Source of the DNA: Myxococcales bacterium 68-20
GTDB taxonomy: Bacteria > Myxococcota_A > Polyangia > Polyangiales > Polyangiaceae
Reading direction: 5' to 3'
Length of the DNA stretch: 64,000 bases
Assembly: GCA_001899635.1 (NCBI GenBank)
Contig: MKVQ01000048.1
Span: 62,001 to 126,000, forward strand
How positions within the stretch are numbered: the stretch's first letter is position 1; each line of letters opens with the position of its first letter. Below the pieces are notes generated by a model. That model saw only the letters and a list, made by a program, of their open reading frames with translations. It was not told the DNA's origin and searched no databases. This document shows, piece by piece, positions 2,780-17,786 of this stretch. The position numbers and the translations under genes are program-made.

Positions 2780-5290
2780 TCAGGGCCGCGCCGTGCCGTC
2801 GACGAACACGTCGAGCTCACCGAGTCGACCACCCGGGCCTTCGACCTTCACGTCGAGCTCCTTGCCTTCGCTGCCCTGGAAGTACGAGACGCGGATCCGG
2901 TGGTGCCCCTTCCGAAGGGCGATCGCGCCCTCCGCATCGCGCGGCTCGTGCTCGCCGTCGTCCTCGAGGATCGTCTCCCCGTCGATCTCGACCCGCACTC
3001 CGTCGTCGGCACGCGCGACGAAGCGGTACACGCCGTCGTCCTTCGCCTCGACGAAGCCGTCGAACCACAGGGCGAAGCGCTCCTTTCGCATCCGCCGGCC
3101 GAGCGCACGCTCCACGCTCGCGAGCCCGATGCTCGCGACGCGACCGCGCGTGATTGGCGTCGTCGCCCCGAGCTCGGGGAGGCGGTGAAAATCGCCCTCG
3201 ACGTACGCATAGCTCACGCCGGTGCTCGGCGACGCGAGCGTGGTCGGAGAACGGAGCGCCTCGCGCACGATCGTCGACCGGAGCGGCGGGCTCACACGTC
3301 CGCCGGGCAGGAACAGCGCCGCGGTGATCTGCGTCGTGTCGCGCACCTCGAGCGGCGCGACGAACGCGGGTGACGCCCGCGTCGGCTCCGATCCGTCGGT
3401 AGTGAAGCGCACGACGCCGCTCGGAAAGAGTCGCGGCGCAACGAGCGTGACGGTGGCAGCTCCGCCGTCGACGAAGACCTCGCGAGCGCGCAGGCCCTCG
3501 GGCGGCTCGACGAAGTAGCGGACGCCGGAGGCGTCGAGCGCAGGCAGCTGAGCACCGAACCGTGCTGCAAAGTCGACCTCGCGGGCGCGACCGGCCGAGC
3601 TCTTGGCGGCACCGGGCGCGCTCTTGACGGCGCCGGCGGCCTCGCCCGCGCCCGTCCACAACGACTCCGCCAGCGCGGCCACGCGCGGCATCGCCATCAG
3701 GTCGATCTCCTCCGGCGTCTCGACGTACTCCGTCCAGATCGTCCCCTCTCCGCCGAGGATCTTCGATGCGCGCGCCGGCTCGAGCCCCTCGGGAGCGGGA
3801 TCGAAGTCGTACACCTTCGACCACGGCAGGAGGCCCTCGTGCCCCGGCTCGCCCTTCGCGCGCGACTGCCGGATGTTGAGGTAGACCTGATCGTGCGGAG
3901 CCATGACGACGTCGAAACCGCGCGCGGCAGCCTCGCGTCCGCGCTCTTTCGATTGCCACGCGAGCACGACGGCATCGGCGGGAAGCGCATCGGAGAGCGC
4001 CTCGTCCCAGACCACCGCCCTCCGGCCGTGGCGCGCGAGCATCGACGCCGCGCGCTTCATGAAGAGCCCCTGGAGCGCGCTCGCGTCGAACCTCCCCGAC
4101 CGCTCCCGAGCGAACGCGGCGCGGCACTTGGCGCAAGCCGACCAGCGCACGGGCGGCACCTCGTCTCCACCGATGTGAACGAGGCGCGACGGAAAGATCC
4201 CCGCGACCTCCCCGAGGACGTCCTCGAGGAGCGCGAAGGTCTTCTCGTTCCCGGCGCAGAGGACGTCGTCGAAGATCCCCCAGGTCCGCGGCACGCTCTG
4301 CCGCTTGCCGGTGCACGAAAGCTCGGGATGCGCGGCGAGGATCGCGCGCGCGTGTCCGGGCATCTCGATCTCCGGCATCACGGTGATGAAGCGCTCTCGT
4401 GCGTGGCGGACGACCGCGCGCGCCGTCTCCTGGGTGTAGAACCCGTCGGTGCCCCCCACCGCCGTGAGCTCGGGATGGCTCTTCACCTCGATGCGGAAGC
4501 CCTGGTCGTCGGTGAGGTGCCAATGAAAGACGTTGAACCGGTAGAACGAGAGCAGGTCGATCCACCGCTCGACGACGTCCGCCGTGAAGAAGCGGCGCGC
4601 CACGTCGAGGTGCATCGCCCGGAACGGAAAGCGCGGGGCGTCGTCGATCGTGACGCACGGGACCGACCATCCCGACGAGCTGGCGTCGAGCGGCGGCGTC
4701 GTCTGCCCGATGCGTCGCGCGCCCGCCAGCTGCGCGAGCGCCTGCGCTCCGTAGAACAAGCCGGCCGGCCGTCGCGCCTGCACGATCGCGCGCTCGGGCG
4801 AGACGTCGAGCGTGTACGACTCGTCGTCGACATCTCGCGGCGGCTCGAGCGCGGCGTCACGCGTCTCGCGTTCCGCGCGCGGCTCGCCGTCGGCGCGCTC
4901 GAGGCGGAGGACGATCCCACGGGTCGGCTCGCCGAGCGCCCCGCTCGAACCCGTGAGCGCCGCCTCCGGCAAGCCGAGCCAGCGGGCAAGCTGCTCGCCG
5001 ATCGCGCGCGCGTGCGCGGCATCGGGCGAACGTACGTCCGCGATCGCGAGCGGCGTCGCGCGATCGATCCGGAGCGCGCCCTCGCACCGCGTGAGCGATC
5101 GCGGGCGCGGCACCAGCGGCAGCGCCTCCGGCCCACGGCTCGACGCCCGGTCGCGGGACGCGTCGTGGGAGCTCGCCTCGGCGGGGCCCGTCGCGGAAGC
5201 GGCGATGGCAGACCGTCGTGCATCGCCGCCACACGAGGTCACGACCGAGATCGCGAGCAGCCCCAGCGCATAGAACGGACGTCGCGTCAC
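2780..5290 (-). CDS. Beta-N-acetylhexosaminidase (GH20) lipoprotein with C-terminal PA14-like domain
   Basis: Glycoside hydrolase family 20 enzyme removing terminal N-acetylhexosamine from chitin or peptidoglycan fragments, predicted outside the inner membrane. The GTG at 5290 gives 836 residues beginning with a lipoprotein signal (MTRRPFYALGLLAISVVTSC), which is why I chose it; an in-frame ATG at 5320 and longer starts exist. Order: signal, linker, GH20b-like domain, catalytic barrel with HIGGDEVP (the Asp376-Glu377 pair used in substrate-assisted catalysis), a chitobiase/FN3-like segment (VRFTTDGSEPT), and a C-terminal PA14-like domain (FALWFDGFVEAKDDGVYRF) likely to bind carbohydrate. The gene stands alone and is divergent from the gene at 5535. 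Enzyme class is secure; the exact substrate is inference. Confidence 0.93.
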   Translation of the reverse strand: MTRRPFYALGLLAISVVTSCGGDARRSAIAASATGPAEASSHDASRDRASSRGPEALPLVPRPRSLTRCEGALRIDRATPLAIADVRSPDAAHARAIGEQLARWLGLPEAALTGSSGALGEPTRGIVLRLERADGEPRAERETRDAALEPPRDVDDESYTLDVSPERAIVQARRPAGLFYGAQALAQLAGARRIGQTTPPLDASSSGWSVPCVTIDDAPRFPFRAMHLDVARRFFTADVVERWIDLLSFYRFNVFHWHLTDDQGFRIEVKSHPELTAVGGTDGFYTQETARAVVRHARERFITVMPEIEMPGHARAILAAHPELSCTGKRQSVPRTWGIFDDVLCAGNEKTFALLEDVLGEVAGIFPSRLVHIGGDEVPPVRWSACAKCRAAFARERSGRFDASALQGLFMKRAASMLARHGRRAVVWDEALSDALPADAVVLAWQSKERGREAAARGFDVVMAPHDQVYLNIRQSRAKGEPGHEGLLPWSKVYDFDPAPEGLEPARASKILGGEGTIWTEYVETPEEIDLMAMPRVAALAESLWTGAGEAAGAVKSAPGAAKSSAGRAREVDFAARFGAQLPALDASGVRYFVEPPEGLRAREVFVDGGAATVTLVAPRLFPSGVVRFTTDGSEPTRASPAFVAPLEVRDTTQITAALFLPGGRVSPPLRSTIVREALRSPTTLASPSTGVSYAYVEGDFHRLPELGATTPITRGRVASIGLASVERALGRRMRKERFALWFDGFVEAKDDGVYRFVARADDGVRVEIDGETILEDDGEHEPRDAEGAIALRKGHHRIRVSYFQGSEGKELDVKVEGPGGRLGELDVFVDGTARP

Positions 5291-5534
5291 GGCTTCACCA
5301 TAGCGCGCCGCTCCGAGCATCCTGCGCGAATCGCCACGGCGCTCCCGAATCACCGACTCGCGCGCCATGACGTCGGAGCGATCTCGAAGAACGCTCACTC
5401 GGATTCGCGGCGTCTCACCGTCGGAGGTCGCGGCGAGCAGCGTCTCGCCGAGCTCGACCGATCGTCTCGCGGCGCCGAGGAGGCGCTCCCTGGAGATTGC
5501 CCGATTAGGCACGGTATGTTGGCGTAGGACTGAC

Positions 5535-6650
5535 TTGCTTCGGGCTGTGCGTGTCGCCTTCGTATCGATCGTGATCTTGTGCGCTCTCTGGGCGACGGCA
5601 AGGGCAGAGGGCACGCACGTCCGCGCGACCGTCCTCGTCTCGTCTGCCGATGATCGCACCTTGATGGATCGCGTGCGCGGCCAGACGAGCGACCTCGATG
5701 CGGACATCACGGTCCACGACGCTCGATCGGTCGCACCGACTTACGAGGCGCGGATGCGCGAGGCGGATGCCGCCGCGAAACGAAGCCAGGCGAACGCGGT
5801 GATCTGGTTCCGGGTCGTCGGCGCTTCGATCACCGTCTACGTCGCGGTTCCCGCGCAAGATCGCGTCCTCGTGCGGTCGCTCGGCGGAGGCAGCGGCAAG
5901 CCCTCCTCCGCGACGCTCGAGGCAGCGGCCCTCGTCGTTCGCGACGTGATACGCGCGCTCGGGCAGGGCGCCACGGTCGGTGAGCTTCGTGGCGAGCGTG
6001 ATGCCACCGACGTGCAGCCTCCGCCGCCGCTCTACTTCTGCGCCGAGCCGGCGTGCTGGGACCGCGCTTCGCCGCTCGCGCTCACGTCACCTGCTCGGCC
6101 ATCGCAAGCGCCGACGTTCGTGTCCGCCGCCGGCTGGGGTCTGGTTCGCACACGCGACGCTTCGAAGGTCATGCATGCGCTCGAGCTTCGTCTCGGCGCA
6201 CGGTACGAGAGGCTCTTCGCTACAGCGGCGCTCACGCTCGGCGCGATCGACGTCGAGCGCGTGACCGAGCGAGCGGATCTCCTCGTGCGGAGACACTCGC
6301 TCGCGCTGAGTGCGGGCGCGACGAGAGTCCTGAGCCGGGACGTCACCATCGACGTCGGTCTCACTGCAGGCGCCGTCACCTTCGTCCGCGCGACGCGCTC
6401 GCTCGCACCGGCGTTCGTCCCCACGGAGACGCGTGCCCACACGCGCTTGCTCGCCGGCCCGGAGGCCCGCCTGTCGTGCGCCATGGCGCGAACGGTCGCG
6501 GTCGTCGCCACGCTCGGGGTCGATGCCATCCTCGATCCGCCACGGTTCGAAGTCGTGGAGGTGCCTGGACGGTCCGGCGTCTACGGCCTCGCGAGTCTAC
6601 AGCCGCGTTTGAGCATCGGGATCGAGTGGTCGAGCTCGAACTTTCGTTGA
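5535..6650 (+). CDS. Secreted two-part protein of unknown function, possible outer-membrane barrel
   Basis: Not recognised as a named family. The 371-residue product from the TTG at 5535 (TAGGAC 5 bases upstream; GTG at 5547 is an alternative) starts with a cleavable signal peptide ending ALWATARAEG. Residues about 25-160 form a soluble alpha/beta-looking region (VLVSSADDRTLMDRVRG; AVIWFRVVGASITVYV). A Pro-rich linker follows, then about 200 residues of alternating hydrophobic segments (FATAALTLGAIDVE; ALSAGATRVLSRDVTIDVG) that could be an outer-membrane beta-barrel. It ends 30 bases before the sigma-factor gene and runs in the same direction, so it may be the first gene of that operon. The barrel assignment is inference from residue patterning. 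Confidence 0.7.
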   Translation: MLRAVRVAFVSIVILCALWATARAEGTHVRATVLVSSADDRTLMDRVRGQTSDLDADITVHDARSVAPTYEARMREADAAAKRSQANAVIWFRVVGASITVYVAVPAQDRVLVRSLGGGSGKPSSATLEAAALVVRDVIRALGQGATVGELRGERDATDVQPPPPLYFCAEPACWDRASPLALTSPARPSQAPTFVSAAGWGLVRTRDASKVMHALELRLGARYERLFATAALTLGAIDVERVTERADLLVRRHSLALSAGATRVLSRDVTIDVGLTAGAVTFVRATRSLAPAFVPTETRAHTRLLAGPEARLSCAMARTVAVVATLGVDAILDPPRFEVVEVPGRSGVYGLASLQPRLSIGIEWSSSNFR

Positions 6651-6680
6651 CCCGATTTCCAGAGCCCGACGCTCTATCGG

Positions 6681-7244
6681 GTGAAGATGGCTGCCGTGGC
6701 GCGCTCACCCGCCGAATTTTCGTCGGCTCCCCGCACGGAGACCGCTCCGGCTGCCGACGACCAGGCCGCCGCGCATGCCCTGCTCGTCGAGCTCGCTCCG
6801 CGCATCCGTAACCTCGTTCGCTATCTGATCCGCGGCGACGTCGACGTCGACGACATCGCGCAGGAGGCGATGGTCGCGGTGCTGAAGAACCGGTCCGACT
6901 ATCGCGGTGACGGCCCCTTCTCCGCGTGGGTCGACCGCATCGTGGTCCGGACCACGTTCACGGCACTGCGCCGCCGCAAGCGTCGACGAGAAGAGCCTCT
7001 CCATCCCGAGCACGCGGAGCCCGTGCACGACGCGTTCGGTGAGTTTCATTCGCGGCGCCAGCTCGTCGCCATGCTCGATCGACTGCCGCCGCCGCAGAGG
7101 CACGCCGTCGTCCTTCACTACGCCCTCGGCATGACCGTCTTCGAGATCGCCGAGGAGCTCGAGACGTCGGCCGAGACCATCCGAAGTCGGCTCCGCCTCG
7201 CGAAGACCGTGCTCCGCAGGAACCTGGAAAGTGCGCAACGATGA
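6681..7244 (+). CDS. ECF-family RNA polymerase sigma factor
   Basis: A 187-residue alternative sigma factor with only regions 2 and 4. Region 2 is centred on DVDDIAQEAMVAVLKN (about residues 52-67). Region 4 is LPPPQRHAVVLHYALGMTVF followed by an EIAEELETSAETIRSRL helix-turn-helix near the C-terminus. The start may be GTG 6681 or ATG 6687. Its stop overlaps the next start by ATGA (7241-7244), coupling it to the membrane TPR protein, which takes the place usually held by an anti-sigma factor. It probably directs transcription of its own downstream lipoprotein genes, but that is inferred from position only. Confidence 0.93.
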   Translation: MKMAAVARSPAEFSSAPRTETAPAADDQAAAHALLVELAPRIRNLVRYLIRGDVDVDDIAQEAMVAVLKNRSDYRGDGPFSAWVDRIVVRTTFTALRRRKRRREEPLHPEHAEPVHDAFGEFHSRRQLVAMLDRLPPPQRHAVVLHYALGMTVFEIAEELETSAETIRSRLRLAKTVLRRNLESAQR

Positions 7245-8065
7245 AGAACGACGACCCCTGGCAATTGCACGGCGAAGGCCCCGCGCTCCCGCTCGCGGAA
7301 GAGGAGCTGCATCGACTCGTTCAGGGCGCCGTCGGACGCGCCTACGGAACGGAGCAAGGGCCTTCTTCGAGCGTGGAACGTACCGGCGCCACCGCCGCGC
7401 GATGGCTCGTCGGCGGTCTGGGACTCGCTGCCTGCGCCGTCGCCACCTGGGCGATCTACGGCGCCGCGACCGAACGATCTACGGCGCCCGGAGCGGGGGC
7501 AGGACCAGCGACGCCGGCCGCGGCGATCGCCATGGAGACCCCGGCGTCGCCGGCCGGGGCGCTCGCGACGAACACGGACTCGCCCGAGGTCCCCATCGTC
7601 GACGTACAGGCTCTCCCGACGGTGCGACTCGCCGCCGATAGAGCTCCGCGAGGCAATGTCGTTGCGCCGGAGGCCTCGCGGGACCTGCTCCGTGAAGCCA
7701 ACCAGCTGCGCGCGGAGCGTCGCTGGGGTGAAGCGGCGACGCTCTACCGGCGCGTTGCCGATGCACGCGGCGGCGAATCGACGACGGCGATGCTCGCGCT
7801 GGCATCGCTCCGGCTCGAGCACCAGAACGACGCCCTGGAAGCTCGTCGCCTCTACCGAGCCGTCGTCGACGCGGCTCCCGACGGTCCGCTCGCCGAAGAG
7901 GCAAGGTTGGGCGTGGCGATGGCCTGTCGTGCGCTCCGTGACGAGCGTGGTGAGAGCGCGGCGCTCCGGGCGTTTCTCGGACACCATCCCTCGAGCCTCT
8001 CCGCGACGAAGGCGCAGCAGAGGCTCACCGAGCTCGAGCGCGCGCAGAAAGAGGTGACGCCGTGA
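7241..8065 (+). CDS. Membrane-anchored TPR-like protein, candidate anti-sigma partner
   Basis: 274 residues with one transmembrane helix (WLVGGLGLAACAVATWAIYG, about residues 50-69), an N-terminal cytoplasmic stretch of about 48 residues, and an Ala/Pro-rich linker. A helical TPR-like region occupies about residues 145-270 (LLREANQLRAERRWGEAATL; AMLALASLRLEHQNDALEAR). Topology and position directly after an ECF sigma gene (ATGA overlap) match the layout of FecR-like or anti-sigma proteins, with the N-terminal segment facing the sigma factor and the TPR part outside. There is no ZAS-type HxxxCxxC zinc motif, so if it is an anti-sigma factor it is a non-classical one. It overlaps the next gene by GTGA (8062-8065). 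Confidence 0.8.
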   Translation: MKNDDPWQLHGEGPALPLAEEELHRLVQGAVGRAYGTEQGPSSSVERTGATAARWLVGGLGLAACAVATWAIYGAATERSTAPGAGAGPATPAAAIAMETPASPAGALATNTDSPEVPIVDVQALPTVRLAADRAPRGNVVAPEASRDLLREANQLRAERRWGEAATLYRRVADARGGESTTAMLALASLRLEHQNDALEARRLYRAVVDAAPDGPLAEEARLGVAMACRALRDERGESAALRAFLGHHPSSLSATKAQQRLTELERAQKEVTP

Positions 8066-9246
8066 CGCGACACTGGCTCGTTCTCTTCTTCCCCCTCGCC
8101 GCGATCGGCGCGTGCACCGAGCCCGACGTGATCGGCTTCGACACGACGCCCGACTCGCCCGGCTTCGCCCTCATCGACGGAGGTCAAGGCGATGCCGCGG
8201 CGTCGGAGGGAGAGCTCGTCTCGTACTGCCCCACGAACAAGTGTCCCGCCGGCTGGACGACCTGCCCGAACTCGCGCTTCCCGTGCGACGTGAACCTGTG
8301 GACCGACGTGAACAACTGCGGTGCCTGCGGGCGGCGCTGCCCCTCGGCAGGAGCGGGCGCAACGTTCGCCTGCGTCGAAGGCGTCTGCGCGATGCAATGC
8401 AGCGCATTCCCTACGAGGCTCGATTGTGACGGCCTCGCCGACAACGGTTGCGAGGGGGAGCCGCTGAACGACAACCACTGCGGATCGTGCGACAAGAAGT
8501 GCACCGACCCGGCGAAGCGCTGCGCCGACCAGACGGGGCGCGGCCAGGGCGACGTCGATTGCGGCTGCCCTGCCGGAAAGCTCGATTGCTTCCGTTCGTG
8601 CGTCGACAGCAACACCGACGACTACAACTGTGGTGGCTGCTTCAACTGGTGCGATCCGACGGGTGGAGGACTCCCCGCCTATTCGAATAGCTACTACGGA
8701 TGCGTCAACGGCTCGTGCGATGGGCTGAAGTGCAACGCGCGGTTTGCCGACTGCGACAAGGTTCGAGAGAACGGCTGCGAGACGTCCCTCGTCACGAACG
8801 ACAACTGCGGCGCCTGCGGAACGGCCTGCCCCGACGGCCAGGCGTGCCGCCTGGATCCGGACGGAAAGCCGACGTGCATGTGCCCGCCCGGCCTGACGTA
8901 CTGCGAGAGCGGGTGTGACGGCGACGTTTGCACCGGGAGCTGTGTCGACCTCAAGTCGAACGTCGGCAATTGCGGAGCATGCGGAGCCGTGTGCGGTGGC
9001 GCTTCGGCCCCGAATGCCCGGCGCACGTGCGTCTACGGCGCGTGCGTCCCGCACTGCAACGTCGGTCGAGCCGACTGCAACAACAGCATGACGGACGGGT
9101 GCGAGGTCAACACGGACAGCGATCCACGGAACTGCGGGGCCTGCGGCCACGTCTGCGACGCGGTCGCTGGCCAGGCGTGCGTCGCAGGCAAGTGCGCGGT
9201 CGAACCTTGCGACACCGACGCCGGGACGGGAGAGGTCGCGCGATGA
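8062..9246 (+). CDS. Cys-rich repeat lipoprotein
   Basis: 394-residue lipoprotein starting at GTG 8062 (MTRHWLVLFFPLAAIGAC, lipobox AIGAC). After an Asp/Gly linker there are six Cys-rich modules built around NCGACG-x-x-C and variants (NNCGACGRRC, NHCGSCDKKC, YNCGGCFNWC, DNCGACGTAC, GNCGACGAVC, RNCGACGHVC). Each is followed by a GxC turn and, in several, an ADCxxxxxxGCE element. Even cysteine spacing suggests a disulfide-knotted surface stalk. No enzymatic motif is seen. Third gene of the sigma-factor operon, overlapping both neighbours by 4 bases. The module type is common in Polyangia proteomes (general knowledge) but its function is unknown. Confidence 0.85.
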   Translation: MTRHWLVLFFPLAAIGACTEPDVIGFDTTPDSPGFALIDGGQGDAAASEGELVSYCPTNKCPAGWTTCPNSRFPCDVNLWTDVNNCGACGRRCPSAGAGATFACVEGVCAMQCSAFPTRLDCDGLADNGCEGEPLNDNHCGSCDKKCTDPAKRCADQTGRGQGDVDCGCPAGKLDCFRSCVDSNTDDYNCGGCFNWCDPTGGGLPAYSNSYYGCVNGSCDGLKCNARFADCDKVRENGCETSLVTNDNCGACGTACPDGQACRLDPDGKPTCMCPPGLTYCESGCDGDVCTGSCVDLKSNVGNCGACGAVCGGASAPNARRTCVYGACVPHCNVGRADCNNSMTDGCEVNTDSDPRNCGACGHVCDAVAGQACVAGKCAVEPCDTDAGTGEVAR

Positions 9247-10430
9247 CGATCAGGCGTTGGCCGCTCATCGGGGCGGGCCTTCTCACATGTGCATCGGCCA
9301 GTGGGCTGCTCGGCGCGTGCGCATCGGACGACAGTGATCCGCTCGGCGAGCCCGAGCCCGGGCAGGTCACGGCGCCGGTGCAAGACGCCGCTGCGGGAGA
9401 CGCGGAGCCGGAGCCGTGCACCAGCGGCGAATGTCTGTTCTTCCCGGAGGAATGCTCGTCCGACACTCTGTGCCCCACCGGACCGTTCGATCTCGTGAAT
9501 CCCGCGGCCGGCATGGACTGGCGGACGCGAATCCAGATCGTCCGCGGTCGCTCCGCGAATGACGTCTGGCTGGCAGGCACGGTCGGAACGATTGCCCGCT
9601 TCGACGGAGCGTCGTGGACGAAGTCCGAGACCGGAAGCGAGGAGGCGCTGAGCTTCCTCTGGCTCACGGCGACGAGTGAGATCGCGTTCGGGTCCCCGAA
9701 CCGGATCTACGCACGCGGTCTCGACTTCGACGCGGGCGGCGCGGGCGCCTCTGCCGGTGGATGGTCGCTCCTCCCGAGGGCGATGAGGCCTTCGGGGTTC
9801 GGCAGCCAGGTGACCGCCGCATGGGCGCCGTCTGGTTCGGAGCAGCTCTGGCTCGCCATGGAGAACACGCTCTGGCGCGCGCGGGTCGGCGCGGCGTCGA
9901 ATGTCGAATTCGCTGCCGGCATTCCGACCTCCGTCTGCACCACGCTCGGATGCCGCCGGATGCGGAGCATCCACGGAGCCTCGGCGAAGACCGTGTGGGC
10001 CGTCGGCGAGAGCGGCGTGGCGGTGCGCATCGACGACGCCGACGGAGCGACGCCGCGCGCGACGGCGTTCAACACCGCGACGTGGACCGGGTTCTCCGGC
10101 GTCTGGGCCGCGTCCGACACGAACGTCTGGGCCGTCGGCGGATTGGGCACGATTCGCCACTACACCGGGGATCCCGTCCGGTGGGACGCCGTCCTCGACG
10201 TGCCGACGAGCGAGAACCTCAACGCGGTATGGGGAACGTCGCCGTCGGACATCTGGGCCGTCGGCAACGCCGGCGTCGTCCTTCACTACGACGGGACGAG
10301 CTGGTCACGCATCAAGATCGCCGGTCTCGGCACGCGCCGGCCGGATCTCTACACGGTCTGGTCGCCCGCAGCCGGGCAGGTCTGGATCGGCGGCCTCGGC
10401 GTCGTCCTCGCCCTCGGAGGCAACCCATGA
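9243..10430 (+). CDS. Lipoprotein with repeated beta-propeller blades (first copy)
   Basis: 395 residues from the ATG at 9243, which sits in the ATGA overlap with the previous stop. The signal peptide ends in LLGAC. After a short Cys-containing linker (CTSGECLFFPEEC) come repeated blades with the pattern VWAVGxxGxIxxYxG: NDVWLAGTVGTIARFDG, KTVWAVGESGVAVRI, TNVWAVGGLGTIRHYTG, SDIWAVGNAGVVLHYDG, GQVWIGGLGVVLAL. This resembles photosystem-stability/BNR-like or Kelch-like propellers. Likely exposed on the outer surface as a binding module. It is followed by a related but more divergent lipoprotein through another ATGA overlap. Confidence 0.82.
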   Translation: MTIRRWPLIGAGLLTCASASGLLGACASDDSDPLGEPEPGQVTAPVQDAAAGDAEPEPCTSGECLFFPEECSSDTLCPTGPFDLVNPAAGMDWRTRIQIVRGRSANDVWLAGTVGTIARFDGASWTKSETGSEEALSFLWLTATSEIAFGSPNRIYARGLDFDAGGAGASAGGWSLLPRAMRPSGFGSQVTAAWAPSGSEQLWLAMENTLWRARVGAASNVEFAAGIPTSVCTTLGCRRMRSIHGASAKTVWAVGESGVAVRIDDADGATPRATAFNTATWTGFSGVWAASDTNVWAVGGLGTIRHYTGDPVRWDAVLDVPTSENLNAVWGTSPSDIWAVGNAGVVLHYDGTSWSRIKIAGLGTRRPDLYTVWSPAAGQVWIGGLGVVLALGGNP

Positions 10431-11869
10431 GAAGCGGTTTCGCTCTTGCGTGTATGTCACTGGTGCTCGCCGCCGCCGCGGCGTGTGCGACCTCGAGCGA
10501 CGACGAGTCGTTCCTGACCCCGGACGCCTCGGCGCCGATCCCTCCGCCGCCTCCCAGCGTCGACGCGGACTCGGGCCCCGTCCGTGACGGTGCGGCGCCG
10601 ACCTTCTCTCCGTGCAGCGCTGCCGGTTGGTGCATCACGCCACTCCCCGATCCCGACCTGACACTGAAAGACATCCGCCCGTTCGAACATCGCGCCTTCG
10701 CGATCGCGGAGAGCCCTGCGTTCGGCGTCAAGGTCCTCGAATGGGACGACGTCGGAGACAAGTGGGCGTACATCGACGACAACAGCCAGAACACGTACGA
10801 GCTCAGCGCCTACGCCGGCAAGATCTGGGCACCGAACGAAAACGAGCTCTACTACGCAGTCGCGCCCGGGGTCGTCTATCACGGCAAACGTGTTGCGCCC
10901 GGGTCGCCCTGGGCGTGGACGCGGAGCCGCCTCGACGACAGCCGCGTCGTCTCCAACGACAAGCATGATCCTGGCGTCGCCGAGTACTCGAACCGCTACG
11001 AGGCCCCGCCGGTCAAGACGACGGCGCTCGGCGTATGGGGCACTTCGGAGAGCGATGTCTATGCCTGGTACGCCAATACGATCTTCCACCTCGAAAAGGA
11101 CGGGAGCGGAAAAGACGTTTGGGTGATCGACCACGTCCTGGAAGATCCGGACAACCCCGAAGACACGTTCTTCGTCTTCAACGCCACCGGCTCCGGCCCC
11201 GACGACGTCTGGTTCTCGGTCGGACGAGGTCGCTACGACGCCACGGGCCTCTTCGCGTGTCCCGCAGCCGTTCGCAAGTCGGACGAGGGATATCGGCGCG
11301 TCCTCGATCACACGATCAATCCCCAGGACACGTGGTCCCATTACGGCGATAGCTGCCAGCCGAAACCGGATGCCCTGAGCTTCACGACGGGCATCTACAT
11401 CGAGGCGCTGCCGGAGCTCGGCTTCTTCCCCGTTCCCTGGCCGCACGGGGGATGGCTCAGCCACATCGAGTCCGCCGGCCCCGGCTCCGTCGTCGGGATC
11501 TCGGGCGGGAAGTACTTCGCCTACCTGACCACGGCCGACGGCGGCTCGGCGCAACTCAATCACACCTACGTCGAGGTTCCGGCGTCCGACGTGCCGACCC
11601 TGAGCTCCGTCTGGATCCACGATTCGGAGGTCTGGCTCAGCGGATGGGGGCTCATCCTTCGGACGGGCAACGAGCCTGCGAAATGGAACACCGGTCTCGG
11701 CCTGTATCCGCCGGATCACCACAACCCGTTCGACGGAGCGACGTTCAGCGTCTCGACGACCGTGCTGAACGGCTCCCCGCTCGACAGACCCCTTCAGGTG
11801 CGAGGCACCTCCAACACGAACCTCTGGGCGATCGGACCCCGCTATGCACTTCACAAGACGACGCCTTGA
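10427..11869 (+). CDS. Lipoprotein, divergent propeller-like paralogue
   Basis: 480 residues from the ATG at 10427, overlapping the previous gene by ATGA. Signal MRSGFALACMSLVLAAAAAC with lipobox AAAC, then an Asp/Pro linker. Scattered blades (SDVYAWYANTIFHLE, DDVWFSVGRGRYD, SEVWLSGWGLILRTG, TNLWAIGPRYALHKT) share the SDVW/TNLWA pattern of the preceding gene, so the two look like diverged tandem duplicates. No catalytic motif is seen. The end overlaps the next gene by 26 bases. A beta-propeller fold is inferred from the repeat pattern only. Confidence 0.8.
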   Translation: MRSGFALACMSLVLAAAAACATSSDDESFLTPDASAPIPPPPPSVDADSGPVRDGAAPTFSPCSAAGWCITPLPDPDLTLKDIRPFEHRAFAIAESPAFGVKVLEWDDVGDKWAYIDDNSQNTYELSAYAGKIWAPNENELYYAVAPGVVYHGKRVAPGSPWAWTRSRLDDSRVVSNDKHDPGVAEYSNRYEAPPVKTTALGVWGTSESDVYAWYANTIFHLEKDGSGKDVWVIDHVLEDPDNPEDTFFVFNATGSGPDDVWFSVGRGRYDATGLFACPAAVRKSDEGYRRVLDHTINPQDTWSHYGDSCQPKPDALSFTTGIYIEALPELGFFPVPWPHGGWLSHIESAGPGSVVGISGGKYFAYLTTADGGSAQLNHTYVEVPASDVPTLSSVWIHDSEVWLSGWGLILRTGNEPAKWNTGLGLYPPDHHNPFDGATFSVSTTVLNGSPLDRPLQVRGTSNTNLWAIGPRYALHKTTP

Positions 11870-13190
11870 TCGGAGCGGCTCACGCATGCTCCTCGCCGCT
11901 GCCCTCGCGGCGAGCGGCGCTGCGATGGCGAGCTGCTCGAGCAGCGACGACGGCGGCTCCGCATCGAACCCGGCGGATGCCGGCGCCGAGGCGACGACCG
12001 ACGAAGCCGGATTCGATGCCGCGAGCCCGACGGATGCCGGCTTCGTCGACGCGAAGCCGCGCCCGGTCGTCTGTGCTTCGCAGCCCTGTGCGACGTCGCT
12101 CGTGACGACGCTCGGCGCGAACGCCGACGATCACGCTGAGGGTTTCTGCGCGCTCCTCGACGACGGCACCGTCGCCTGCTGGGGAGCCAACGGCGCCGGC
12201 CAGCTCGGGCGGGGTGACGAGGCCGGCAAGATCGACAGTGCGAACGCTGCGCGCGTGGTCGGCCTCTCGGACGTGGCGATGCTGGATCACACGTGCGCGG
12301 TCGACGAGCGAGGCGCGGTGTGGTGCTGGGGCACGGGCCCCTTCCTTCGCGACGGTGCAGGCATCACGACCACGCGTATCCCCGTGAAGCTCGATTTGCC
12401 GCCCGCGACGGCGGTCGGCCTCGGCCACTCCACGGCGTGCGCAGTGGTCGCCGAGGGCGTCGTCTGCTGGGGCAGCAACGCGGACGGACAGCTCTACCCG
12501 CTCACCGCGACGCCGGACGATGCAGGGCTCCTGCGATCGATCGCGGTCCCAACGGGCGCGCCCGTTCGTGGTGTGGCCGTCGGTCGAGCGACGTTCGTCC
12601 TCCGCGAGGACGGTGCGCTCGTGACGTGGGGAGCCAATCCTCCGATCGGACGCCTCTCGCCGATGTTCCCCGATTCCCAACCCCAGGCCGTCGACACGCT
12701 GCACGGGGTCGGCTCGTTCGACCTCGTGCACGACAACGCCTGTGTCACGGCGGGCGGCAGGGGATATTGCTGGGGCGCCGCGGTCGTGGCGCCGAGCTGG
12801 TACGGGGGTTCCGCGACCGAGCGCGCGCTTCCCCAGCCCGTGATCGCTCCCGAGCCGCTCGTCCAGATCGCGACGACGCGCACGCACGTCGTCGACGGCG
12901 TCGTCCAGCGCTACCGATGGTGCGCGGTCGGCGTCTCGGGGTCCGTCTACTGCTGGGGCCTCAACGAGAACGGACAGGCGGGAGACGGAACACGAGAGTT
13001 CGCGTTCGACGCGATCAAGGTCAGAGATCTACCGGAGCCTGCAGCGCAAGTGAGAACGACGCCCAACGCGACGTGTGCGCTCCTCACCAATGGGAAGGTC
13101 CGTTGCTGGGGCGCCAACTACTACGGTCAGCTCGGAAACGGAGAGAACAGGGGCAGGAGCTTCGTTCCGCAAGAGGTGGTGCTGCCATGA
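11844..13190 (+). CDS. RCC1-repeat beta-propeller lipoprotein
   Basis: 448 residues from the ATG at 11844; the ATG at 11886 is possible but would lose the charged n-region MHFTRRRLDR. The lipobox is MASC, followed by an Asp/Ala/Ser linker. The body carries RCC1-type repeats of the form CWGxNxxGQLG: CWGANGAGQLGRGD, CWGTG, CWGSNADGQL, TWGANPP, CWGAA, CWGLNENGQAGDGT, CWGANYYGQLGNGE. This is about one seven-bladed propeller. Such secreted RCC1 proteins are abundant in myxobacteria and are thought to mediate binding rather than catalysis (general knowledge). It lies within the sigma-factor operon, with the last gene overlapping by ATGA. Confidence 0.88.
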   Translation: MHFTRRRLDRSGSRMLLAAALAASGAAMASCSSSDDGGSASNPADAGAEATTDEAGFDAASPTDAGFVDAKPRPVVCASQPCATSLVTTLGANADDHAEGFCALLDDGTVACWGANGAGQLGRGDEAGKIDSANAARVVGLSDVAMLDHTCAVDERGAVWCWGTGPFLRDGAGITTTRIPVKLDLPPATAVGLGHSTACAVVAEGVVCWGSNADGQLYPLTATPDDAGLLRSIAVPTGAPVRGVAVGRATFVLREDGALVTWGANPPIGRLSPMFPDSQPQAVDTLHGVGSFDLVHDNACVTAGGRGYCWGAAVVAPSWYGGSATERALPQPVIAPEPLVQIATTRTHVVDGVVQRYRWCAVGVSGSVYCWGLNENGQAGDGTREFAFDAIKVRDLPEPAAQVRTTPNATCALLTNGKVRCWGANYYGQLGNGENRGRSFVPQEVVLP

Positions 13191-14986
13191 GAGTGAGCGT
13201 GAGCGCGCGCACGTCCCGCGCAGCCGCGGTCTCCGTCATCGGTCTCGCGATCCTCGCCGCCGCCGCGTGCGGGGACGACCGTGACGGCTTCGCAAAAGGT
13301 CCGGCCGGCTTCGTCACACCCGACGAGGCGGACGCGGGCGAATGCCAGTATCAGTGCTCGCTCGACGGCCGCTCGGTCATTCGCTCGTGCACGGGCGAGG
13401 TCGTCGAGACGTGCGCGCCGGAGCTCGCATGCGGCGCCGCGCGTTGCCAGAATCCGTGCGACGCCGCGGCCGACGACAAGAGCTCGAACGGCTGCGAGTT
13501 CTTCTTCCAGTCGCCGGCTCCCCGCGGCGAAGCAGGCGCAGGCGACAGCTGTTACGCCGCCTTCGTCGTCAACACGTCGGCGCAGCCGGTGAACCTCACC
13601 CTCGACCGTGAAGGCAAGGAGCTCGACCTCTCGAAGTCGATGTTCCGCACGAATCCGGGAGACGCGACGACGTTCATCCACCATACGGGCCCGGTCGCTC
13701 CCGGAGAGAGCATCATCCTGTTCCTCTCGGATCGCGATCCGAGCACGCCGTTGGCGGAAGGCTCCCACTCCATCGCATGCCCGGCCGGAGTGACGCCTAC
13801 GGTTCTGGCAGGACTCTCTCTCCCCGGTACCGGCCTCGGCCCATCGTTTCATCTGAAGGCCGACGTGCCGGTGTCGCTCGTCTCGATGTTCCCGTTCGGC
13901 GGTGCCAAGAGCTACATCCCCTCGGCCACGCTGCATCTGCCGGTCACGACCTGGACGAAGGAGCATCTCGTCGTGACCGCGTGGGAGGCGACACATACGG
14001 GGAATCCGACGACGCAGATCGTTGCCTCCGAAGACGACACCGAGATCACCGTCGTTCCGGCGCGAGCGCTCCAGGATGCAGTCGGGATCCGCGGCGGCCC
14101 CGCCGGAATGCCCGTGAAGTACCGTCTCGCAAGAGGCCAGTATCTTCAGTTCGCCCAGTTCGAGGAGCTCGGCGGGAGCATCGTCACTTCCAACAAGCCG
14201 ACCTCGCTCTTCAGCGGTCATCAATGCGCGTACGTCCCGACGTCCCAAGGAGCGTGCGACACGCTCGGTCAACAGATCCCCGCCTTCGAGCAATGGGGCT
14301 CCGAGTACGTCGCCGTCGGCTACCGCCCGCGTCTCGGCGAAGAGCACGAGCCGATGCCCTACCGCATCGTCGCGGCCCGTGACGGCACGCGCCTCGACTA
14401 CGATCCCGCGATCCCTGCCGGAGCTCCGACCGAGCTCTCCGCGGGCCAGTCGGTGACGTTCCCTGCCGGCGTCGGGGACGCGTTCGTCGTCCGCACGCAG
14501 GACGCCGATCATCCGATCTACGTCGCGGCGTACATGACCGGCTGGACGGGCGGCTACTTCGGCGCGCCGTCGAGCGGCGGCTGGGGCGACCCGGAGTTCG
14601 TCAATGTCGTGCCGTCGGGTCAATACCTGAGCTCGTACTCCTTCTACGCGGATCCGACCTACGACGAGACCTCCCTCGTCGTCGTGCGCGCCAAGAAGCA
14701 CGGTGAGTTCAAGGACGTCTGGCTCGAGTGCGCCGGCAACCTGACCGACTTCCGTCCGCTCGGCACCCGCGGGGACTACGAGTTCACGCGCGTCGACCTC
14801 TCGAAAGGTCGCGGCCCCGGACAGCAGTTCGGAGACAAGATCTGTCAGTCCGGGCTCCAGCGCATGAAGAGCGACGGACCGTTCACCGCGACGGTGTGGG
14901 GCTGGGGCTTCGCCGCCAGCTACGCGTATCCGGGAGGAATGGCGCATCGAAAGCTCGTCACGACCCCCCTCACGACGGTCAACTGA
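13187..14986 (+). CDS. IgGFc-binding-domain-like surface lipoprotein
   Basis: 599 residues from the ATG at 13187. Signal and lipobox end LAAAAC, followed by an N-terminal Cys-rich patch (CQYQCSLDGRSVIRSC; CGAARCQNPC). The remainder resembles the IgGFc-binding protein N-terminal domain family: AFVVNTSAQPVNLTL, a repeated T-T-F/E-I-T-V strand pattern (DTEITVVPA), a QYLQFAQFEELGGSIVTSNK segment, and a C-terminal ASYAYPGG. That domain is known from animal FCGBP and many myxobacterial and planctomycete secreted proteins, with unknown bacterial role. It is the last gene of the operon. A weak hairpin (GAGCAC/GTGCTC, 15028-15061) is the only terminator-like element after it. The domain call is from memory of the family. 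Confidence 0.75.
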   Translation: MRVSVSARTSRAAAVSVIGLAILAAAACGDDRDGFAKGPAGFVTPDEADAGECQYQCSLDGRSVIRSCTGEVVETCAPELACGAARCQNPCDAAADDKSSNGCEFFFQSPAPRGEAGAGDSCYAAFVVNTSAQPVNLTLDREGKELDLSKSMFRTNPGDATTFIHHTGPVAPGESIILFLSDRDPSTPLAEGSHSIACPAGVTPTVLAGLSLPGTGLGPSFHLKADVPVSLVSMFPFGGAKSYIPSATLHLPVTTWTKEHLVVTAWEATHTGNPTTQIVASEDDTEITVVPARALQDAVGIRGGPAGMPVKYRLARGQYLQFAQFEELGGSIVTSNKPTSLFSGHQCAYVPTSQGACDTLGQQIPAFEQWGSEYVAVGYRPRLGEEHEPMPYRIVAARDGTRLDYDPAIPAGAPTELSAGQSVTFPAGVGDAFVVRTQDADHPIYVAAYMTGWTGGYFGAPSSGGWGDPEFVNVVPSGQYLSSYSFYADPTYDETSLVVVRAKKHGEFKDVWLECAGNLTDFRPLGTRGDYEFTRVDLSKGRGPGQQFGDKICQSGLQRMKSDGPFTATVWGWGFAASYAYPGGMAHRKLVTTPLTTVN

Positions 14987-15876: not shown

Positions 15877-17262
15877 CTACGGGTGCGTCATCGATTCGGG
15901 CTTCACGATCTCGTCGAACTTTGCCTCGGTGACGAGCCCGAGAGAGACCGCGGCCTCCTTCAGCGTGATGTTCCGCTCGTAGGCGGTCTTCGCGATCTTC
16001 GCGGCGTTCGCGTAGCCGACGACCGGCGAGAGCGCCGTCACGAGCATGAGCGAGCTGGCGACGTGACGCGCGATCGTCTCACGGTTCGGCTCGATCCCGA
16101 CGACGCAGTGCTCGCCGAAGCTCTCGCAGGCATCGGCGAGCAGCTCGACGCTCTCGAGCACGTTGTGGACGATCATCGGCTTGAAGACGTTGAGCTCGAG
16201 CTGACCGCTCCCTCCCGCGATCCCGACGGCAACGTCGTTGCCCATCACGTGCGCGCATACCATCGTGAGCGCCTCGACCTGGGTCGGGTTGACCTTGCCC
16301 GGCATGATCGAGCTCCCCGGCTCGTTCGCCGGGATCAGGAGCTCGCCCAGGCCGGCGCGCGGACCGCTCGCGAGGAGGCGCACGTCATTGGCGATCTTCA
16401 TGCACGCGGTCGCGAGGAGCCGGAGCGACCCGCTCAGCGCCACGAGAGCGTCGTGACCGGCGAGCGCCGCGAACTTGTTCGGCGCCGAGCGGAACGGCGC
16501 ACGCGCTAGACGAGCGATCTCGGACGCGACGCGCGACGCCCACTCCGGATGCGAGGTCATCCCGGTGCCCACGGCGGTACCGCCGAGCGCGAGGTCGTAC
16601 AGACCGTCGAGCGCCTCGACGATCTTCCTCTCGGAGAACGCGAGCTGCGCGGCCCAGCCGCTCATCTCCTGCCCGACCGTGAGCGGCGTTGCATCCATCA
16701 TGTGCGTGCGGCCGATCTTCACGATGTCGGCGAACGCCTCGGCCTTCTCCTCGATCGCGCTGCGGAGCGCGTCCACGGCGGGGAGGAGACGCTCGCGGAC
16801 ACGCGACGCCACCGCGAGGTGCATCACGGTGGGGAACACGTCGTTGGACGATTGCGACATGTTCACGTGATCGTTCGGATGGACCGGGCCGGCGGTCCCG
16901 AGCTTCGCCCCGAGGAGCTCGTTCGCCCGGTTCGCGATCACCTCGTTGGCGTTCATGTTCGTCTGCGTACCGCTGCCGGTCTGCCAGACGACGAGCGGAA
17001 ACTCCGCATCGAGCTTGCCGGAGATCACCTCGTCGGCCGCGCGCGCGATCGCGTCGGCGCGCTGCTCGTCGAGCTTTCCGAGCTCGCGGTTCACGTGCGC
17101 GGCGGCCTTCTTCACGACGCCGAGGGCGTGGATCACCGCCGGGGCGAACTTCTGGCCGCCGATGCGGAAGTTCTGGAGGCTGCGCTGGGTCTGCGCCCCC
17201 CAGTAGCGGTCCGCCGGCACCTCGATCTCCCCCATCGTGTCCCGCTCGATCCGCATCGCCAT
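15877..17262 (-). CDS. fumC: Class II fumarate hydratase
   Basis: Iron-independent fumarase converting fumarate to malate in the TCA cycle. 461 residues, normal for FumC, from ATG 17262 (ATG 17256 equally possible). Seen: the N-terminal [20 protein letters not shown], the substrate-loop [13 protein letters not shown], the [14 protein letters not shown] motif, and the superfamily signature [13 protein letters not shown]. The small secreted-protein gene ends 62 bases upstream on the same strand, so co-transcription is possible. It is convergent with the unknown gene at 15332. Very secure. Confidence 0.97.
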
Positions 17263-17324
17263 GCGGGCGTTGATAGCACGAGCGGGGCCACGACAGCCCT
17301 GCGGCGCCGGTGCGCCGCGAAGCG

Positions 17325-17786
17325 TTACTTTCCGCCGAGCGCGTGCGGGATGCGACGAACGGCACTGCGCACCGCCGCGTGCGCCACCTGCTTGCGGAGC
17401 TCCGCAGACGCCGGGCCCTCGGCCTGCGCTCCGGCCTCGATGATCGCGATCATGACGCCCGTATGAGCGTCGCGAACCATCGCGTTCACCGTGCACGAGA
17501 TCGTCTTCTCCGCGACGGCGCGAGTGAGCGCGAGCGATACGACGACCTTGCGACGACCGGGGAGGCGCGACGGATCGATCTGCTTGATCTCGGCGGCGGC
17601 CGCATCCCGAAGGACGGAGGCGTCGATCCCCGAGCTCGCCGGAGGCGGCGTGATCTCACCGACCGCGATCGACGCGTCTGCGGCCTCGACGTGCGCGGAC
17701 GCGAACATCGCCAGCGCGAGCGCGAGGGCCGCTGAGAACGCACGCCACTTCCGCCTCGTTCGACTCGGTCGCTCGTCCAGCGTCAT
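17325..17786 (-). CDS. Small secreted protein of unknown function
   Basis: 153 residues from ATG 17786, preceded closely by GAGGGC. It has a basic n-region (RRKWRAF) and a hydrophobic signal segment ending [11 protein letters not shown], so it is exported. The mature part has a beta-rich look with [20 protein letters not shown], an [20 protein letters not shown] stretch and an Ala/Arg-rich C-terminal helix. The pattern resembles the many small Polyangia envelope proteins that carry a 'gene product summarised over input names' layout, but I cannot name a family. It lies 62 bases upstream of fumC. Confidence 0.65.

Follow-up and report, generated by a model that had tools for sequence, protein, structure and literature searches.

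A dispersed family of ECF sigma factor cassettes in a Labilithrix genome, a possible repertoire of cell coats that can be switched separately

Antigenic variation by families of cassette genes is exemplified by vls, pil and VSG, and polysaccharide utilization loci are known to carry surface lipoproteins. The mechanism of surface signalling through FecA, FecR and FecI is that of a known system, as outlined in PMC9249621. In PMC12596196, B. thetaiotaomicron is credited with 50 ECF sigma factors, nearly half of them in polysaccharide utilization loci, and an ECF sigma factor working with an anti-sigma factor that spans both membranes is given as a known arrangement. We report here on a locus from the genome of Myxococcales bacterium 68-20 (genus Labilithrix), contained in a 64,000-nucleotide stretch of contig MKVQ01000048.1 (hereafter the window). 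In the open-licence literature we found no description of such cassettes.

The original prediction for positions 6681-14986 was an operon running from an ECF sigma factor through a membrane protein to five lipoproteins, and both gene set and gene order proved correct, with 122 runs in the genome repeating the order almost invariantly. All genes of the locus are on the + strand. The sigma factor (6681..7244) was recognised by TIGR02937 (86.2 bits against a cut-off of 42.9, which places it among ECF sigma factors) and by Pfam sigma-70 regions 2 and 4. It is followed by gene 2 (7241..8065), a membrane protein with a transmembrane segment, a TPR-like C-terminus and a presumed role as sigma regulator. 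The body begins with a Cys-rich lipoprotein (8062..9246), in whose translation the six predicted Cys modules can be counted. With 71.8 bits against a curated cut-off of 100, this protein is related to the MXAN_6577-like Cys-rich family (NF041328) but was not assigned to it; each of the 30 sequences in the Cys-rich alignment matched NF041328 at E <= 0.001. Next come lipoprotein 1 (9243..10430), a putative propeller defined by an HMM family, and lipoprotein 2 (10427..11869), which had no Pfam match and was predicted by AlphaFold to be a beta-propeller (mean pLDDT 81.6; PDB propeller matches at Z about 26, the best with Z 26.9, rmsd 2.9, 296 aligned). Of the two propellers that had been proposed, the second was upheld by this structural model. 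An RCC1-repeat lipoprotein (11844..13190; PF13540, RCC1_2, 97.8 bits, cut-off 22; PF00415, 53.0 bits, cut-off 21.7) and a lipoprotein with an IgGFc-binding domain (13187..14986; PF17517, IgGFc_binding, 346.2 bits, above the gathering score of 25.6) complete the locus. The sigma, gene 2, Cys-rich and RCC1 genes are ORFs exactly as called mechanically; the starts of both propeller genes and of the IgGFc gene lie within longer mechanical ORFs, and their positions were read from the DNA. Five junctions are 4-base overlaps (7241, 8062, 9243, 10427 and 13187) and one, between propeller 2 and RCC1, is a 26-base overlap (11844-11869), in agreement with the original prediction.

The window locus belongs to a dispersed family that counts no fewer than 122 cassettes with seven or eight genes each, which rules out a stand-alone single operon. 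We found 122 sigma-to-IgGFc runs in the genome (11.9 Mb, assembled in 52 contigs), spread over 36 contigs and totalling 1.00 Mb, or 8.4% of the genome; in 113 of them all seven slots are filled with an ORF. Junctions were called as 4-base overlaps in 463 of 723 cases, a figure that is biased upwards because the start caller favoured the codon nearest to a 4-base overlap, and as 26-base overlaps in 53. The Cys-rich gene has 137 matches at E <= 1e-40 in this genome and the IgGFc gene 141, fragments among them; seven bodies have no sigma gene on the same strand in front of them. Lone IgGFc ORFs also occur. Among the 22 closest pairs the median dN/dS was 0.31-0.47 depending on the gene, calculated over whole genes, which indicates purifying selection; gene-wide diversifying selection is ruled out by medians below 1.

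The original prediction missed both this family of copies and a gene upstream of the sigma gene that travels with it. This gene 0 (5550..6650), called as an ORF, stops 30 bp upstream of the sigma gene and encodes a predicted outer-membrane protein with an N-terminal periplasmic domain and a beta-barrel. A gene 0 family profile matched upstream of the sigma gene in 101 of 122 copies, so that the eighth cassette gene is usually a predicted outer-membrane barrel protein directly upstream of sigma. The gene 0 of the window is divergent: it falls outside the 100-member main class, has no Pfam match, and a profile grown from it heads only three runs. A model of the main class built from 53 aligned sequences (mean pLDDT 84.6, pTM 0.57) was predicted to contain an OmpA-like 8-stranded barrel (Z 17.1, rmsd 2.8, 160 aligned) and gave a tentative match of the second domain to the N-terminal domain of TolB (Z 8.5, rmsd 2.7, 97 aligned); the search used the whole model, its hits are dominated by the barrel, and unrelated models can come close to a Z of 8.5. 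No Pfam match to a TonB-dependent receptor was found in the 53 main-class members. A typical cassette, as judged from these comparisons, thus has a head of predicted barrel protein, ECF sigma factor and membrane TPR-like protein, and a body of five lipoproteins, in fixed order.

For gene 2, the membrane part of the proposed "membrane TPR protein" stood up, a hydrophobic segment being present in 108 of 121 copies, and the TPR part did less well, with weak hits below the cut-off in the window protein. No FecR or anti-sigma Pfam domain was found in the gene 2 product of the window or in 30 relatives, and the putative regulator role is therefore suggested by where the gene lies, by its topology and by its co-evolution. 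Gene 2 was assigned as the longest ORF in the gap and not by profile in 43 of 121 copies, and in some, including that of the window, its start was set too far upstream. This may explain why the two sigma factors nearest to that of the window, in C12_99300 and C27_171868, belong to cassettes that rank only 26 and 13 by gene 2.

A putative promoter stretch (6580..6680) lies 5' of the sigma gene, marked by a dip in G+C and by enriched words over the 122 copies. The dip (0.49) is at -40 to -31 relative to the called sigma start; ACGATTT occurs in 21 copies against 1.7 expected and GTGATCA in 12 against 1.0. Gapped-pair motifs before sigma showed no excess (top count 17, shuffle maxima 14-20), and no promoter site was pinned down in the window itself. 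Over all pairs, similarity of this stretch is weakly correlated with that of the head (rho 0.07-0.10; shuffle maxima 0.03-0.05) and not with that of the body; the 100 most similar stretches have a mean ECF identity of 0.51 versus 0.33.

A lipobox was detected in 81 of 122 Cys-rich, 131 of 161 propeller 1, 68 of 78 propeller 2, 90 of 119 RCC1 and 96 of 122 IgGFc proteins, against 3 of 122 sigma factors. Asp at the +2 residue was rare (4 of 578, relaxed lipobox pattern). The five body proteins would be placed on the outer membrane and may be exposed at the surface. That the five form one set, as had been proposed, is borne out by their pairwise distance correlations (0.68-0.82; 114-122 copies). 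In the 60 closest body pairs, homology at the DNA level begins 106-243 bp inside the Cys-rich gene in 42 and ends between -26 and +28 bp around the IgGFc stop in 56; 18 are homologous upstream of the body too. Close bodies share their homology in one block, which in most cases begins within the Cys-rich gene and runs up to the final stop codon.

Head and body are nearly uncorrelated across the copies. With distances taken as simple identity, correlations within the head were 0.40 (rho) for ECF and gene 2, 0.37 for barrel and ECF, and 0.33 for barrel and gene 2, and those between head and body ranged from -0.05 to 0.10. The decoupling is not total, since the ECF-Cys-rich value of 0.10 exceeds the largest of 50 shuffles (0.06). 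Trees were compared by supported splits in the 91 copies with all eight genes, seven-gene tests using 113 of the 122 copies; copies with a missing slot were dropped. Within the head 25 of 37 supported splits were common and 5 conflicting, and between two halves of the body 40 of 54 were common and 5 conflicting; between head and body a single supported split was common and 53 of 54 supported head splits conflicted. All 22 pairs with a mean body identity >=0.70 have a head identity <=0.36 (all-pair median 0.29). Taken together, these comparisons indicate that head genes co-evolve, that body genes co-evolve and that the two halves have been re-paired between copies; the new pairings most likely arise by recombination. 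The idea of one sigma factor with its own fixed set was not supported, as the halves are repeatedly re-paired and more than 120 copies of the locus exist. The tree conflicts and pair identities speak against duplication of whole cassettes as the main route, although one pair, C48_543332 and C40_487473, is alike throughout, as after such a duplication.

In the genus, the Cys-rich gene was found at E <= 1e-40 in 7 of 11 other genomes, with 0 to 39 copies versus 137 in the genome of the window. Outside the genus it gave weaker matches only, in 1 of 26 relatives and in 3 of 234 genomes of the phylum, for which 8 candidates were scored per genome. Relatives of gene 2 were present in 31 of 37 other genomes, as was PF17517 itself. 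These surveys indicate that gene 2 relatives occur order-wide and that strong Cys-rich matches are confined to the genus, the spread of heads being read from gene 2 alone and the genus limit of bodies from the Cys-rich gene alone. In stretches of two other genus genomes, 29 of 42 IgGFc runs hold an ECF gene in the same order, so that the genes are not scattered or unlinked in relatives; several of the remaining runs are interrupted by contig ends. A contig scan with the IgGFc protein gave three loci, one of them chance-like. In a second genome (G003, 23 cassettes) the decoupling of head and body is weaker and replicates in part only: within-body correlations were 0.70-0.87, ECF-body correlations 0.12-0.19 (reached by 9, 3 and 2 of 200 shuffles), and barrel-RCC1 (0.32) and barrel-IgGFc (0.30), reached by 0 of 200 shuffles, come close to the 0.34 of barrel-ECF. 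Between species the same head-body pair is kept in 11 of 16 close cassettes; the swapped ones include L194 and L203. In the approximately 2 kb upstream of the 11 pair-keeping cassettes, a match of >1 kb was found at the expected place in one (L224) and at the neighbouring cassette in another (L201), a match of 47-252 bp in four and none in five.

We consider it fairly probable, judging by sequence and by analogy, that the head is a FecA/FecR/FecI-like switch for one alternative set of five lipoproteins, and that pairings of switch and set are remade by recombination. The barrel protein would sense something at the outer membrane and its periplasmic domain would signal to the gene 2 protein, which would release or activate the private sigma factor; this in turn would activate the promoter in front of its own gene, and with it the body downstream, and a particular set of five lipoproteins would be displayed on the outer membrane. 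A body copied behind another head would put an old coat under a new switch. Such sets would probably serve for binding to different prey, polymers or partners, depending on the signal received. We infer the signalling, the exposure at the surface and the function, be it binding of prey or polymers, recognition or switching of coats. More tentatively, and with somewhat less than even confidence, the family may be a combinatorial repertoire of more than 120 five-protein coats, each with its own outer-membrane sensor and sigma factor, re-paired by recombination near a fixed border.

The cassettes could instead be alternative coats, shown one or a few at a time and changed to evade phages or predators or to mark kin, and not serving to bind different food. 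The size and divergence of the repertoire, in which all 122 runs include a sigma gene, the sharp variation in Cys-rich copy number (0 to 137 over 12 genomes of one genus) and the re-pairing of switch and coat would all agree with this, but a layout of silent donors and one expression site is missing, because each run has its own sigma gene, and the whole-gene median dN/dS of 0.31-0.47 is not above 1; we regard this explanation as rather unlikely. Spread of the cassette as a genomic parasite of no benefit to the cell is very improbable: copies are indeed dispersed over 36 contigs, and for the unique flank of C12_301764 neither of two related genomes (G003 and G006) has a real counterpart, although one of them has an ortholog of the cassette, but no recombinase is found among the cassette genes, all seven slots are occupied by an ORF in 113 of 122 runs and the genes are under purifying selection.

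Two further explanations would do away with exchange between copies, and we give hardly any credence to either. The first is that whole cassettes were duplicated and heads then evolved much faster. In its favour, the closest body pairs differ more in their heads than in their bodies, and similar heads sit on somewhat more similar bodies than average (median body identity 0.45 in 178 pairs with head identity >=0.45, versus 0.34 over all pairs). However, head and body trees are each internally consistent and yet 53 of 54 supported head splits conflict, some similar heads are found on bodies at background identity (C48_595858 and C48_342263), and in the 11 pair-keeping cassettes of other species heads are about as similar as bodies. 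Misjoined repeats, which would make the swaps only apparent, might be suspected in a genome of 52 contigs, some of which end inside cassettes; this was rejected because even the closest body pair, at 88% DNA identity, differs too much to be misjoined routinely, and because for 11 of 16 close cassettes an independent genome shows the same pairing.

With exchange between copies as the preferred reading, more than 120 mostly intact, diverged copies with re-paired control and output halves would show with unusual clarity how a signalling pathway can evolve by modules. They also provide about 120 natural sigma/regulator pairs for studying the insulation of parallel ECF pathways, and the surface proteins form a defined set with which to ask how prey, substrates or other myxobacteria are recognised by myxobacteria. 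If the combinatorial reading is true, the sensed signal and the displayed coat would evolve independently; should expression also be exclusive, a cell would carry only one coat or a few, and the family would be the bacterial equivalent of the large receptor families of eukaryotes.

Like the FecA/FecR/FecI system, the cassette encodes an ECF sigma factor, a putative regulator predicted to span the membrane once, and a predicted outer-membrane barrel with a periplasmic N-terminal domain, and the three are encoded together and co-evolve. The analogy is loose, because the main gene 0 class, with an 8-stranded barrel of OmpA type and a domain tentatively likened to TolB-N, is not a TonB-dependent receptor with a signalling domain; moreover, gene 2 is without a FecR family match, and the output is five lipoproteins and not a transporter. 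The cassette also pairs an ECF sigma factor with a membrane protein, as does the system whose anti-sigma factor spans both membranes, but its membrane protein and its outer-membrane barrel are separate genes. With vls, pil and VSG it shares a large family of diverged surface-protein genes and, most likely, recombinational exchange; unlike them, the 122 runs carry a separate sigma gene apiece, a promoter-like stretch precedes sigma family-wide, and no single expression site was seen. Polysaccharide utilization loci resemble the cassettes in that they, too, exist in parallel in large numbers and combine surface lipoproteins with an ECF sigma factor at each locus. No SusC/SusD-type match was found among the cassette proteins of the window, and, unlike those loci, the cassettes keep a fixed gene set in 122 runs; within the cassettes, which are the side of the comparison covered here, switch and output are re-paired.

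All seven open reading frames of the ECF sigma/lipoprotein operon that the original prediction had placed at 6681-14986 were borne out, together with their junctions (4-base overlaps at five of them, a 26-base overlap at the sixth). The ECF sigma factor (6681-7244), the RCC1 lipoprotein (11844-13190) and the IgGFc-domain lipoprotein (13187-14986) are supported by Pfam and NCBIfam, and the Cys-rich lipoprotein (8062-9246) is a relative of NF041328 with a score under the cut-off. No Pfam or NCBIfam match above cut-off was obtained for the propeller-like lipoprotein (propeller 1, 9243-10430) or for propeller 2 (10427-11869), the latter being a predicted beta-propeller. The membrane TPR-like protein, gene 2 (7241-8065), is a putative anti-sigma factor; no known anti-sigma domain was matched in the window copy or in 30 relatives. 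The operon is flanked on the minus strand by genes which, by the look of their translations, we take to encode a GH20-type hexosaminidase (2780-5710) and a class II fumarase (15877-17496).

The surroundings of IgGFc matches in the window's genome (G000, genus Labilithrix) were retrieved, merged and annotated using profiles built on the genes of the window. An ECF sigma gene is present in the run ended by the IgGFc ORF for 122 of 142 such ORFs, and these runs hardly deviate from the order sigma, gene 2, Cys-rich, propeller, propeller, RCC1, IgGFc. All seven slots are filled in 113 of the 122 runs (cassettes), a recognised propeller or RCC1 gene being absent from a few; for gene 2, the profile identified 78 copies, and in 43 others the slot was assigned to the longest ORF of the gap. 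The runs total 1,001,127 bp (8.4% of 11,892,454; median 8.3 kb). PF17517 gave 141 matches in this genome versus none in 14 control genomes, the Cys-rich gene 137 at E <= 1e-40 (some truncated by contig ends), and the window sigma protein 115, 81 of them in cassettes and 34 outside. With median pairwise identities per gene of 0.26-0.43, the copies are, on the evidence of their sequences, old. Overlaps of 4 bases were called at 463 of 723 junctions by a gene-start caller that favours them, and overlaps of 26 bases at 53, sited at propeller 2/RCC1 in the pairs inspected; that of the window (11844-11869) seems conserved across the family. We found no account of this family in the literature on myxobacterial IgGFc, Labilithrix or ECF expansions, mostly non-subscription papers.

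An eighth gene usually belongs to the cassette. An ORF 150 or more codons long, ending between 260 bp upstream of the sigma start and 60 bp inside it (median distance 63 bp), precedes the sigma gene in 117 of 122 copies; 100 of these ORFs form one family, whose profile was matched in 101 copies. The main family of this gene 0 is predicted as an 8-stranded OmpA-like barrel joined by a Pro-rich linker to a periplasmic domain (mean pLDDT 84.6, pTM 0.57; best PDB Z 17.1), and this domain tentatively resembles the TolB N-terminal domain (Z 8.5, 97 residues). Gene 0 of the window copy (5550-6650) has diverged and falls outside this 100-member class.

Gene 0, the sigma gene and gene 2 (the head) carry a different history from the five lipoproteins (the body). 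Pairwise distances among copies correlated at 0.68-0.82 within the body and at 0.40 (ECF-gene 2), 0.37 (barrel-ECF) and 0.33 (barrel-gene 2) within the head; between head and body the values were -0.05 to 0.10, and solely ECF-Cys-rich (0.10) clearly exceeded its largest shuffle (0.06). A scan of the operon in windows of 40 columns placed the switch in the interval from the gene 2 end to approximately column 41 of the Cys-rich protein. Trees from the 91 copies with all eight genes had one supported split in common between head and body, the body conflicting with 53 of 54 head splits; sigma and barrel plus gene 2 shared 25 of 37 splits (5 conflicts), and the two body halves 40 of 54 (5 conflicts). 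Mean body identity reached at least 0.70 in 22 of 6,328 pairs, in which head identity was at most 0.36 with a median of 0.29, that of all pairs; in the strongest case, C40_513679/C17_64489, body identities of 0.71-0.90 accompany sigma factors at 0.29. The converse is softer, as median body identity was 0.45 in the 178 pairs whose heads are at least 0.45 identical, versus 0.34 overall, and head and body are both similar in C48_543332/C40_487473. The closest sigma factors to that of the window copy are those of C12_99300 and C27_171868 (identity 0.48 and 0.46), cassettes that rank 18th to 111th for its five body genes; these genes are nearest to C4_237025, C23_157567, C16_69615 and C8_134072, and its gene 2 lacks a close relative (best identity 0.33).

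Related cassettes were sampled in two other genomes of the genus (33 stretches of G003 and 7 of G006), where 29 of 42 IgGFc runs contain both ECF and IgGFc genes. Sixteen of these cassettes match a G000 IgGFc at 70% or more; for 11 of them the sigma match lay in the same G000 cassette, so head-body pairs are often inherited between species; by contrast, close body duplicates inside G000 have different heads. Among the remaining five, L213 points to two G000 cassettes with bodies 0.82 alike (IgGFc), and L187 and L218 to two with bodies 0.68 alike. Judged by sequence identity, the last two, L194 and L203, are clear head-body swaps: the L194 head is nearest to C6_138922 (barrel 60%, sigma 73%) and its body to C16_412686 (86-90%), and the L203 head matches C40_523400 (75-82%) and its body the C40_513679/C17 group (66-82%). 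Within G003 (23 cassettes), body genes correlated at 0.70-0.87 and ECF-body at 0.12-0.19 (reached by 9, 3 and 2 of 200 shuffles), but barrel-body values of 0.19-0.32 came close to barrel-ECF (0.34), so head and body are less decoupled there than in G000.

The Cys-rich gene was found at E <= 1e-40 in 8 of 12 genus genomes including G000 (1 to 137 copies), with a weaker match (160 bits) in 1 of 26 non-genus relatives and matches of at most 168 bits in 3 of 234 other genomes of a phylum sample (8 candidates scored per genome), versus 371-409 bits for the eight G000 matches listed. Of 37 other genomes, 31 contain relatives of gene 2, including 21 of 26 non-genus genomes (up to 16 apiece), so that, with gene 2 as its marker, the head is older and more widespread than the body. 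PF17517 domains as such are widespread (31 of 37 other genomes).

Unpaired parts were also seen in G000. At least 149 gene 2 matches (150 candidates scored) compare with 121 gene 2 slots in cassettes; together with the 34 of 115 non-cassette sigma matches, they suggest that some heads may have no body of their own and act on other outputs. Seven bodies lack a sigma gene on their own strand ahead of them (on C4, C23 (two), C31, C40, C42 and C44): the first of these begins at a contig end (C40:24), another has an oppositely directed head (C44:198704-201326) and a third has a barrel-type gene alone upstream (C23:238841); for the remainder, no head was found up to 7 kb from the start of the body in the sequence retrieved. 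Thirteen IgGFc ORFs, e.g. C14:88889, C9:49185 and C4:487685, lie outside any run; several are fragments and most score low with the cassette profile.

Among the 60 closest body pairs, DNA homology stops between -26 and +28 bp relative to the last stop codon in 56; its start lies 106-243 bp into the Cys-rich gene in 42 and further upstream in 18, although the fast-evolving Cys-rich linker means that this start does not pin the exact crossover point. Conserved sequence at both body ends would permit ordinary homologous recombination from copy to copy; the cassette genes include no recombinase. Neighbouring cassettes less than 5 kb apart (19 pairs) have a median IgGFc identity of 0.56 versus 0.41, and hardly more similar heads (ECF 0.33 versus 0.32, gene 2 0.31 versus 0.27, barrel 0.20 versus 0.21), as expected if bodies were copied into nearby cassettes, which we infer may occur. 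A repeat of approximately 150 bp lies between two cassettes (L069 593-741, C33:74692-74840), with further copies at C33:51853 and C33:85900 (93-95%) and in G003 and G006 (82-88%). The flank L101 1-1900 (C12:298500-300399) of a cassette with a G003 ortholog (64-82% by gene) has chance-like short matches only in G003 and G006, and whole cassettes may thus occupy different neighbourhoods.

A promoter-like stretch with a G+C dip and enriched words lies immediately 5' of the sigma gene; for the 100 most similar such stretches, mean sigma identity is 0.51 versus 0.33 overall, and IgGFc identity 0.50 versus 0.46. Lipoboxes are present in 81/122 Cys-rich, 131/161 propeller 1, 68/78 propeller 2, 90/119 RCC1 and 96/122 IgGFc proteins versus 3/122 sigma factors, and the body proteins are under purifying selection. 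The head consists of parts of a surface-signalling chain, and those parts co-evolve. A signal at the barrel protein would be relayed by gene 2; the sigma factor that receives it would switch on its own cassette, and the cell would be coated with that body, whose proteins, to judge from their folds, may bind prey, polymers or partners.
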